Source: Nitrosopumilus adriaticus (GTDB lineage Archaea > Thermoproteota > Nitrososphaeria > Nitrososphaerales > Nitrosopumilaceae). From it: DNA of 64,000 bases. Both the position numbers and the translations under genes were made by a program. The notes under the pieces are model-generated. The model was not told the origin of the DNA. It saw nothing but the letters and a program-made list of their open reading frames with translations, and did no database searches. Positions 7,528-10,822 of this stretch are shown here, piece after piece. Position 1 is the first letter of the stretch, and each line of letters begins with the position of its first letter. Location: NCBI RefSeq assembly GCF_000956175.1, contig NZ_CP011070.1:372001-436000 (forward strand). Reading direction: 5' to 3'.

Positions 7528-7623
7528 GAAATCTATTTTAATTTTTTCCGAAAAAAGATAATGAGTGAAAAAATATCACCAAGGAATCGATTTATACAGA
7601 CTATTTTAAGAATTGATAAAGAA

Positions 7624-8379
7624 ATGACATGGTATTTTGATTCTCACATACATTTGTCTGATCCTGCATATGTCTCTGATATGGAATTTATTTTAAAAGA
7701 AATGGAATATCTGCAAATTAAAGCATGCTGCGTATCTATGGATGTTGAAAATTCATTACAAACTCTAAAGTTAGCAAAAGACAGTAATCTTGTTTTACCC
7801 TTTATTGGAATTCATCCAGAATGTGCCAATGATAATCTTGAAAATATGATTACCTTGATAGAAGACAACCATACACATCTTTCGGGAATTGGAGAAATAG
7901 GATTAGATCCAACATATGTGAATAATCCTGATGATGCTAAAAGACAACGACATGTTTTTGAAACATTATTGTCATATGGTGAAAAATTTAACAAACCAGT
8001 TTCAATACATTCAAGAAAAAGCCTTGATGATGTTTTTGAAATAATGACATCATATAGTACTAAACATGCATTGCTTCACTGGTTTGATGGAAGTAAAAAA
8101 CAGCTACGAAAAGCAATGGATATGGGATTTTTTGTATCTTATGGCCCTGTACTGGTATATGCAAATGATAAACAAACTTTAGTCTCCCTTACAGATGAAT
8201 CAAAAATCCTTGTTGAAACTGATGGTCCTGTAAAATTTTCTAGATGCTTTGAAATGAAATCTGGACAAATTACCTTTATCCCTAGTGTGATCTTTTGTGC
8301 CTCAAAAATTCTAGGAAAAACGTTTGATGAAATGGCTTTTTCGCTAGAAAAAAATACAAATTCATTCCTTGGAATATAG
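7624..8379 (+). CDS. TatD-family metal-dependent hydrolase
   Basis: TIM-barrel metallohydrolase of the TatD DNase family. Metal ligands are visible: His8 and His10 in FDSHIHL, Glu91 in GIGEIGLD, His in SIHSRK, His in LLHWFDG and Asp in VETDGP. A longer frame opens at 7561, but ATG 7624 directly precedes the conserved FDSHIH strand and follows a TATA-like TTTATAC at about -30, so I use it. The reaction is probably 3'-5' exonuclease-like or related hydrolysis by family analogy. It is followed within about 30 bases by eS17. Confidence 0.83.
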   Translation: MTWYFDSHIHLSDPAYVSDMEFILKEMEYLQIKACCVSMDVENSLQTLKLAKDSNLVLPFIGIHPECANDNLENMITLIEDNHTHLSGIGEIGLDPTYVNNPDDAKRQRHVFETLLSYGEKFNKPVSIHSRKSLDDVFEIMTSYSTKHALLHWFDGSKKQLRKAMDMGFFVSYGPVLVYANDKQTLVSLTDESKILVETDGPVKFSRCFEMKSGQITFIPSVIFCASKILGKTFDEMAFSLEKNTNSFLGI

Positions 8380-8410: not shown

Positions 8411-8902
8411 TTGGATAGAATCAAGCGTCTTTCATACGAGGTTTTAGTAGATCATAAATCTAAATTTGGTGAAGACTTTGTTAATAACAAAAAAGCACTT
8501 GATCAAATTTCTATAATCCGTTCTAAAGGTTTGAAAAACGAAATAGCTGGATATATCACAAAATTCATTAAAAAAGAGATTCGAGAAGAAAAATTCAAGC
8601 AATCTAGAATTGAATCTTCACGAATTGAAGAACAAAGAAATGAAGAAAATCAAGTAGCAACACCTGAAACTGTTACAGAAGCAACACCTGAAACTGTTAC
8701 AGAAGCAACACCTGAAACTGTTACAGAAGCAACACCTGAAACTGTTACAGAAGCAACACCTGAAACTGTTACAGAAGCAACACCTGAAACTGTTACAGAA
8801 GCAACACCTGAAACTGTTACAGAAGCAACACCTGAAACTGTTACAGAAGCAACACCTGAAACTGTTACAGAAGCAACACCTGAAGAAGAGAAAGCAGAAT
8901 AG
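8411..8902 (+). CDS. rps17e: 30S ribosomal protein eS17 with tandem-repeat C-terminal tail
   Basis: The first about 60 residues match archaeal eS17: DRIKRLSYEVLVDHKSKFG, NNKKALDQIS, then NEIAGYITKFIKKE. After a charged linker the protein continues with nine identical ATPETVTE repeats and ends ATPEEEKAE. The family is normally about 60-80 residues, so roughly half of this 163-residue protein is tail. The start is TTG 8411, because the TATA box at 8381 places transcription there; an in-frame TTG at 8369 lies upstream of that box. The tail should protrude from the ribosome as a disordered, Thr-rich, acidic extension (inference). Confidence 0.88.
   Translation: MDRIKRLSYEVLVDHKSKFGEDFVNNKKALDQISIIRSKGLKNEIAGYITKFIKKEIREEKFKQSRIESSRIEEQRNEENQVATPETVTEATPETVTEATPETVTEATPETVTEATPETVTEATPETVTEATPETVTEATPETVTEATPETVTEATPEEEKAE
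8657..8890 (+). repeat. 24-bp tandem repeat, 9 copies plus partial, inside rps17e
   Basis: Unit GCAACACCTGAAACTGTTAC followed by AGAA, repeated nine times without a base change between 8657 and 8872, then a partial copy. It encodes ATPETVTE. Perfect identity points to recent expansion or ongoing homogenisation. Confidence 0.95.
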
Positions 8903-8942: not shown

Positions 8943-9716
8943 ATGATTACTGTAAAACTAGTAGGTGGTGCTAAAAAATCTTTTTTGACAGAAAACTTAC
9001 AAATTGACAAATCTGATATCTCTATTAAAGAACTATTGAAACTTTTGTTAGAACTAAAACCTGATGACTCACCCAAATTGGATATTGAAAATATCTTAAT
9101 TGCGATTAATGGTGTAGATTCATCTGCAATGGATGGTGAATCTACAATAATAAAAAATAATGATCTTGTAAGTATAATACCTGTTATTCATGGAGGTGCA
9201 TTAAAAAAAATTACTTTCAAGATTTCCTCAAAACAAATTCAAGTAATTGAAATAAAAGGCCAACCATCAATAGATGTAAAATTCATTGATAATTTGAGAA
9301 AAAAATACCCCAAAATTCAACTTCAAGCTGTTTCAAGTAGTTTTATTATGAATTCATATCATTTGAAAAAAATACTATCATTGTCTTTTGAATCTAAAAA
9401 AAATAATATTTTGCTTTCAAATAAACTTGAAATAGATATTTTGATGCGTTTTGCATTGACGAAGCAAATATCTGACGCAATATTGAAAGTTGGCATAAAA
9501 CCTAAATCAAATTTTATTCTAATTGCCATTGGAAATAAAAAAATCCTAAATTCATTGTATGAAGATTTGATGCCTTTATCTGTAAATTTATTCGTAAAGA
9601 AAAATGATTCTTTTCTTAAAAAATATTTTAAAATTTCTCAAAAACAATTAGATGTTGTTTATTCTAAAAATCCTTTAGAAGATATTTTGATAGAAAAAGC
9701 TGCAATTCTAGTCTGA
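8943..9716 (+). CDS. MoaD/ThiS-like beta-grasp domain fused to KEOPS subunit Cgi121
   Basis: 257 residues in two domains. Residues 1-85 resemble a ubiquitin-like MoaD/ThiS fold: MITVKLVGG at the start, INGVDSSAMDG in the middle, then NDLVSIIPVIHGG with the terminal Gly-Gly at 84-85. Residues 87-257 resemble Cgi121/TPRKB, the KEOPS subunit that binds the tRNA 3' end: LLSNKLEIDILMRFALTKQI, then SDAILKVGIKPKSNF. KEOPS makes t6A37 on tRNA. The neighbouring convergent Sua5 gene makes the threonylcarbamoyl-AMP donor, supporting a tRNA-modification role. The sulfur-carrier-like domain fused at its Gly-Gly end is unusual. Whether it is cleaved is unknown. Confidence 0.8.
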   Translation: MITVKLVGGAKKSFLTENLQIDKSDISIKELLKLLLELKPDDSPKLDIENILIAINGVDSSAMDGESTIIKNNDLVSIIPVIHGGALKKITFKISSKQIQVIEIKGQPSIDVKFIDNLRKKYPKIQLQAVSSSFIMNSYHLKKILSLSFESKKNNILLSNKLEIDILMRFALTKQISDAILKVGIKPKSNFILIAIGNKKILNSLYEDLMPLSVNLFVKKNDSFLKKYFKISQKQLDVVYSKNPLEDILIEKAAILV

Positions 9717-10229
9717 CATACTACGCTTAGTTTTTTCAACACTCAGTATATCTGATTTTTTTAATATGGAAACTCCTGTCTTATTTCCTAGTATCTCAAT
9801 TAAAATAATCTTATCTGGAAATTCTAATGACACTTTGTTTTTTATTTTATCTGCAATTTTTGAAATAATTTCTTGGCTGGATATGTCTGAATTTCTTTTT
9901 TCTATTGAAATTCTATATGTCTCATTATCCAAAATCTGATTGGATTTTTCAGCAATTATTTTCTCTATTTCTTCAATATTAGTTTCAACTATGCTCTGAA
10001 TTGGTATTATTCTTAAGCAATATCTAATACTCCAAGGCTCATCAAGCAGCATTTCTTTCATTTTTTTTACTACATTTACAGGATCTAGTTTTGTTTTGGC
10101 AGTCAAAATCCCTGACATGTTGGTAATAATGACATCTGCATCTGAATCGCCAAATTCTTCTAAAATATCCCTTAATTCATCTTCAGTTTCTGGCTCAAGA
10201 TGTCTAGCACAAGTAATGATTAAATTCAT
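9708..10229 (-). CDS. THUMP-domain protein, Tan1-like (tRNA ac4C cofactor)
   Basis: 173 residues. It begins MNLIITCARHLEPET, typical of archaeal Tan1-type THUMP proteins, continues with a middle alpha/beta segment ending IRYCLRIIPIQSIV, and has a THUMP C-terminal half including YRISIEKRN and IEILGNKTGVSIL. Yeast Tan1 assists acetylation of C12 in tRNA-Ser and tRNA-Leu. Role here is inferred from family. It overlaps the upstream Sua5 gene by 4 bases (coupled) and the convergent MoaD-Cgi121 gene by 9 bases. Confidence 0.78.
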   Translation of the reverse strand: MNLIITCARHLEPETEDELRDILEEFGDSDADVIITNMSGILTAKTKLDPVNVVKKMKEMLLDEPWSIRYCLRIIPIQSIVETNIEEIEKIIAEKSNQILDNETYRISIEKRNSDISSQEIISKIADKIKNKVSLEFPDKIILIEILGNKTGVSILKKSDILSVEKTKRSMSD

Positions 10230-10822
10230 TTCTCTAAAATATCCTCTTTAGTCAAAGAGCCTTCTCGAAGAATATTGATCTTTTCATTTTCTATTTCAAT
10301 TATAGTTGATTCTGCTTTACTTGTAATTGTTCCTCCATCAACAAAAATATCATAATTTTCTAAATTTCTAAAACATTCATCCGGATTTGTAAACGAAGGA
10401 TGTCCTGAAATATTTGCACTTGTACCTACTAGAAAGTTACATCCTTTCAATATTTTTAAAGTACATTTATGATTTGGTACTCTTATAGCAATTTTTTCAT
10501 TTAAGAATAATGATTTCTTTAAATCATTGTCGATTAACTTTAAAATTATTGTAAGTGGCCCTGGCCAAAATTTTGTAACAATTTTTTTTGTAAATTCATC
10601 AATAACCACAATTTTTTCTGCTATTTCTGTGGAGTAAGTCAAAATTGGTAATGGTTTAGAAATGTCTCTGGATTTTATATCATAAATTTTTTTTACTGCT
10701 TCATTATTGTATGGATTACATCCTATCCCATAAACGGTATCAGTTGGAAAAACCGCAATTCCACCGTGTTTGATAATTTCTAAAGCTTTTTCAATTCCTC
10801 CTTGATCACATTTTACTTTCAT
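10226..10822 (-). CDS. tsaC: threonylcarbamoyl-AMP synthase (Sua5/YrdC/TsaC)
   Basis: Makes threonylcarbamoyl-AMP from threonine, bicarbonate and ATP for tRNA t6A37. 198 residues of the YrdC fold with FPTDTVYGIGCNP near residue 25, KSRDISKPLPIL near 50, WPGPLTII near 85, IRVPNH near 112 and GTSANISG near 132. It lacks the extra C-terminal domain of long Sua5 proteins. The first gene of a pair with Tan1, it faces the Cgi121 fusion, forming a compact tRNA-modification locus. Confidence 0.93.
   Translation of the reverse strand: MKVKCDQGGIEKALEIIKHGGIAVFPTDTVYGIGCNPYNNEAVKKIYDIKSRDISKPLPILTYSTEIAEKIVVIDEFTKKIVTKFWPGPLTIILKLIDNDLKKSLFLNEKIAIRVPNHKCTLKILKGCNFLVGTSANISGHPSFTNPDECFRNLENYDIFVDGGTITSKAESTIIEIENEKINILREGSLTKEDILEK

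Follow-up and report, generated by a model that had tools for sequence, protein, structure and literature searches.

A Urm1-type domain joined to the KEOPS subunit Cgi121 in Nitrosopumilaceae: a probable precursor with a conserved internal Gly-Gly

Urm1 is intermediate between sulfur carriers and ubiquitin, and the universal t6A modification is made by KEOPS. A protein joining a ubiquitin-like (Ubl) domain to the KEOPS subunit Cgi121 was described in 2010 by Makarova and Koonin, who found it conserved in every thaumarchaeal genome available at the time and, in N. maritimus, apparently co-transcribed with S17; they also noted a thaumarchaeal Ubl-E1 fusion and proposed either a regulation of KEOPS or a shared part in modifying tRNA (PMC2948915). 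In MoaX, a MoaD-MoaE fusion of M. tuberculosis, a cut between Gly82 and Ser83 is required for function (PMC4326299), and a Deinococcus MoaD-MoaE fusion is cut by DRJAMM (PMC8832034). For the Cgi121 protein MJ0187, Gln71, Ile72, and Gly80 have been identified as CCA-site residues, and mutation of Ile72 abolishes detectable t6A activity (PMC7718258).

The gene studied here, from Nitrosopumilus adriaticus, is the same object as the 2010 fusion in protein family, domain pair, and S17 neighbor, and the fusion was thus already known; an earlier note on this DNA, which held that no KEOPS subunit with such a domain had been described, was mistaken on that point. Our full-text literature search, with subscription journals largely outside its scope, returned no later work on the Ubl-Cgi121 fusion. 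New here are a survey covering hundreds of genomes, ancestral split forms that end at His-Gly-Gly (HGG), about four fusion events, and statistics on the HGG motif, together with a structure model, the co-occurrence of a JAMM1 protease, and the recognition of genomes without detectable E1.

The fusion gene lies at positions 8943 to 9716 on the plus strand of the window (the whole 64,000-nucleotide stretch analyzed), starts with ATG, encodes 257 amino acids, and is supported by matches to Pfam ThiS and CGI-121, to NCBIfam Cgi121, and by orthologues. Among the reading frames of the window, no second credible frame was found at 8943 to 9716, and an internal start yielding a separate Cgi121 was rejected, there being no ATG near the domain junction in the window. 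The fusion is no accident of assembly, because full-length orthologues occur in 25 further contigs and across the family, and the fusions read carry the HGG motif.

Upstream on the same strand are a TatD-family nuclease gene (7561 to 8379; Pfam, 3e-46) and, 40 bp before the fusion gene, the gene for ribosomal protein S17e (8411 to 8902; Pfam S17e, 4.2e-17), with a probable TTG start. Within the S17e gene, a perfect 24-bp tandem repeat (8656 to 8884; 9.5 copies, 100% matches) codes for an ATPETVTE tail, possibly a variable-length tail of the ribosomal protein. On the minus strand are a THUMP-domain protein gene (9708 to 10229; Pfam THUMP, 1.1e-9), convergent with the fusion gene, and the gene for the L-threonylcarbamoyladenylate synthase Sua5/YrdC (10226 to 10822; Pfam, 1.6e-52; TIGR00057, 4.2e-52). 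The tRNA modification neighbors named in the earlier note are therefore confirmed on the opposite strand, with the qualification that a THUMP match alone does not prove Tan1 identity and makes this protein a Tan1-like candidate.

Each half of the protein matches its own family, both by profile and by predicted structure. Residues 17 to 85 match Pfam ThiS in the context of the whole protein (E value, 3.6e-7); taken alone, the front half passes the cut-off of that model (5.3e-8) and matches Pfam Urm1 more weakly (1.8e-4), and an NCBIfam Urm1_like match (8.1e-6) scores 26 bits, below that model's cut-off of 70. Against profiles of solved structures, the front half matches Urm1 of T. brucei (2k9x, 1.5e-6), Sulfolobus (3.6e-5), and yeast (8.8e-4), compared with 0.16 for E. 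coli MoaD (1fm0). An AlphaFold2 model built on a 47-sequence alignment has a mean pLDDT of 91.6 and supersedes an earlier model (pLDDT, 72.5) with a shallower alignment; Foldseek searches with the model retrieve Cgi121 structures at 4e-9 (4ww7_B; TM score of 0.69 by target) and Urm1, SAMP1, and MoaD structures from 1.5e-4, the value for 2k9x. Profiles and structure thus uphold the proposed fusion of a beta-grasp domain, with its Gly-Gly, to Cgi121, but not the MoaD/ThiS label first given to that domain: ThiS is the best Pfam match, yet the solved-structure profiles favor Urm1. Judged by its sequence, the front half (residues 1 to 85, ending in IPVIHGG; 8943 to 9197, plus strand) belongs to the Urm1 type and not to MoaD or ThiS. 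Like Urm1 of Sulfolobales and eukaryotes (4wwm, 2k9x, 2ax5), it has a beta-grasp fold and an HGG end, and like Sulfolobales Urm1 it has an S17 neighbor (PMC2948915); unlike those free proteins, it is joined to Cgi121. The free C-terminal Gly-Gly that marks Urm1-type proteins is internal in this gene product and would become terminal only on cleavage.

The Cgi121 domain (9198 to 9713, plus strand) matches Pfam CGI-121 (PF08617) over residues 116 to 254 (2.2e-6, passing the cut-off) and the NCBIfam Cgi121 equivalog NF011465 at 1.8e-55 (187 bits, against a cut-off of 40). It shares the fold of archaeal Cgi121 (MJ0187, 2k8y), although MJ0187 lacks a Ubl domain. In an alignment with MJ0187, the CCA-contact residues Gln71 and Ile72 of that protein correspond to Q175 and I176, both invariant, and Gly80 corresponds to G184, at least 90% conserved; the positions of K56 and M60 show no clear conservation. 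Because the CCA-contact residues are kept and mutation of Ile72 abolishes detectable t6A activity in MJ0187, the Cgi121 half looks functional.

Each of the 107 Nitrosopumilaceae fusions that were read retains the HGG motif. Across 35 sequence clusters, only six positions of the domain are invariant, among them H83, G84, and G85 (with I82, codons at 9186 to 9197, plus strand), which have an entropy of 0; the 12 residues that follow (86 to 97; 9198 to 9233, plus strand) have a mean entropy of 2.4 bits. The residue after Gly-Gly is Ser in 46 of 76 cases and Ala in 15. In the model, pLDDT falls below 50 only at residues 82 to 85, from which the HGG stretch is predicted to be flexible and not needed by the fold; that a flexible tail is conserved beside residues that vary suggests that the tail itself is used. 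Loss of the Gly-Gly in relatives, which would have spoken against the original proposal, was never seen among those read.

A peptide-bonded glycine cannot be adenylated, so thiocarboxylate or conjugation chemistry by a Cgi121-fused Ubl would need a cut. As in MoaX, a sulfur carrier-type domain with an internal Gly-Gly precedes a partner, and Ser follows the Gly-Gly in MoaX and in most Ubl-Cgi121 fusions; unlike MoaX, whose partner is the sulfur-using enzyme MoaE, the partner here is a tRNA-binding subunit of KEOPS. Cleavage is proven for MoaX and the Deinococcus fusion, and by analogy with both, the Ubl-Cgi121 protein is most likely cut after Gly85. We consider it probable that the gene encodes a co-translated precursor, as one option in the earlier note had it, in which an Urm1-type Ubl is made in front of Cgi121. 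We infer that a protease, most likely a desampylase-type JAMM1, cuts after Gly85 in the flexible HGG linker, that the freed Ubl, with a mature Gly-Gly end, would act in sulfur transfer for tRNA 2-thiolation, in protein conjugation, or in both, and that the freed Cgi121 would bind tRNA CCA ends in KEOPS. A link between thiolation and t6A synthesis through the fusion is possible.

The Ubl could instead be permanently tethered, giving KEOPS an additional domain for docking or regulation in which HGG would be a contact motif and not a C terminus; we regard this reading as rather unlikely. The conservation of HGG, His83 included, to the same degree as the domain core fits a contact motif, whereas its position in the sole disordered stretch of the model does not. 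For the precursor reading, in turn, the invariance of His83 is a difficulty, as an H-to-R change at this site is tolerated in Saccharolobus Urm1.

Searching 399 genomes of the class with a profile of the fusion (family names of the genomes were assigned by kinship to the window) detected it in nearly all Nitrosopumilaceae, a fixation that would also suit a tethered domain. In other families, the Ubl is mostly encoded by its own gene directly upstream of Cgi121. These split Ubls keep HGG in all 49 distinct sequences, of which 34 end exactly with HGG and a stop codon, 14 carry tails of 1 to 9 amino acids, and 1 continues into another open reading frame. In that last case (L222, G629:C62, from position 998 onward), the HGG-bearing Ubl is fused to a phosphoribosyltransferase-like frame (286 amino acids), with Cgi121 further downstream. 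Since most split relatives end at HGG, a cut after HGG would recreate the ancestral end, and the free Ubls that these relatives make argue against permanent tethering. Certain more distant members of the phylum likewise have HGG-ended Ubl genes next to Cgi121 (L041, L043, L055, and L056), and in one split locus (L221/L146, G588:C355), a JAMM1-type gene adjoins the Ubl-Cgi121 pair on the opposite strand.

Outside Nitrosopumilaceae, fused forms are present in some members of one Nitrososphaeraceae-level genus (G594, G595, and G606) and in a distant draft genome (G299, L128). A tree inferred from both halves, concatenated, calls for four changes and places the Nitrosopumilaceae fusions in a single clade, at weak support (0.70); the fusion thus appears to have arisen about four times, with HGG kept each time. 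A neutral fusion through loss of a stop codon, devoid of functional meaning, would account for the alternation of fused and split states inside that one genus, but throughout the family HGG stays invariant next to residues that vary, and we hold such an origin to be very improbable. The invariant HGG, the entropy contrast, the low pLDDT, the ends of the split Ubls, the repeated fusion, and the Ser or Ala after Gly-Gly together suggest a precursor.

Of the loci scanned, 103 of 111 fused and 46 of 75 split ones have the S17e gene directly upstream; in these counts, some loci end early and a few genomes occur more than once. The fusion would be a device for one-to-one co-production that descends from an ancestral row of S17e, Ubl, and Cgi121 genes. 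The conserved neighborhood also fits the proposal that the Ubl, cut or uncut, modifies KEOPS or S17e, a regulation in the style of SAMPylation (PMC2948915). Conjugation of Saccharolobus Urm1 to many proteins lends this idea some weight, but it requires an E1, which went undetected in roughly one in five Nitrosopumilaceae genomes, and no conjugate is known, so that we judge it improbable.

The N. adriaticus genome has two ThiS-family domains, one in the Ubl-Cgi121 fusion and one in a Ubl-E1 fusion, the latter providing an E1 (Uba4-like) partner (G000:C1:288668-289996; L026, 1366 to 2697). In this second protein, the Ubl precedes E1 and bears an internal AGG, and so would need processing too. 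The 24 closed Nitrosopumilaceae genomes each have exactly two ThiS-family Ubl classes, both fused, and none has a free-standing ThiS-family Ubl detectable with the Pfam model, which very divergent Ubls could escape; a further match in G084 (E value, 0.1) is below the cut-off. Two JAMM classes are present. JAMM1, assigned by profile score with an alignment check in a subset, has archaeal JAMM1 as its nearest solved relative (5lda/5ld9, 1.4e-14) and matches a haloarchaeal desampylase model at 1.7e-14, yet below the cut-off of that model. Its motif in N. adriaticus is HxHx7SxxD, with spacing one residue shorter in several Nitrososphaeraceae-type genomes. All 60 surveyed genomes whose Ubl is fused or tailed carry JAMM1 (50 of them are Nitrosopumilaceae, part of which were individually read as fused), compared with 9 of the 14 whose Ubl ends exactly at HGG (one of the 14, G577, was partly read; Fisher P = 1e-4, ignoring ancestry). 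This constant presence runs counter to a tethered Ubl, but the co-occurrence is confounded with ancestry, which also counts against its use for the precursor reading. An NcsA/TtuA-type thiolase occurs throughout the panel, with a weak case only in G096. The restriction to fused Ubls in closed genomes, the JAMM1 distribution, and the thiolase further suggest a precursor.

No ThiF match was found in 37 of 167 Nitrosopumilaceae genomes, and several more have only a weak one. Of 26 genomes without a ThiF match that were examined, 25 have no ThiS-family Ubl besides the one fused to Cgi121, and all 26 keep HGG. Decay of the Ubl upon loss of E1 was rejected: pairs without E1 have a Ubl/Cgi121 rate ratio of 0.97 and pairs with E1 one of 0.94, with no difference between the per-pair ratios (P = 0.40). 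Absence of E1 may partly reflect draft gaps, because the E1-less genomes are all drafts, all 24 closed genomes have E1, and in G499, first counted as E1-less, the E1-linked Ubl sits on a short frame. A frameshifted remnant of the E1 C-terminal domain in G239 (L260, G239:C13, about 1480 to 1660) is a sign of real loss. In the six best drafts (G239, G066, G205, G190, G287, and G263), the orthologue of the threonine synthase gene thrC that lies next to E1 is missing along with E1, and only distant threonine synthase paralogues were found. Unless the losses are recent or partly artifacts, HGG may serve beyond E1 activation. Upkeep of HGG and the Ubl domain at an equal rate in genomes lacking detectable E1 suits a tethered domain, and the persistence of HGG and of an unaccelerated Ubl domain in about 25 such drafts counts against a precursor; it is the main reason that we do not hold the precursor reading more firmly.

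Tentatively, the whole supply of ThiS/Urm1-type Ubls in Nitrosopumilaceae may come only as fused precursors and so be locked to production of a KEOPS subunit and depend on a JAMM protease; where no E1 is detected, the Cgi121-fused Ubl may have a role in KEOPS that needs no E1. Natural comparisons are offered by the genomes with fused and split genes and by those lacking a detectable E1. The conserved physical link between Urm1 and KEOPS in marine ammonia oxidizers, some of the ocean's most abundant archaea, makes the 2010 idea of coordinated pathways directly testable.
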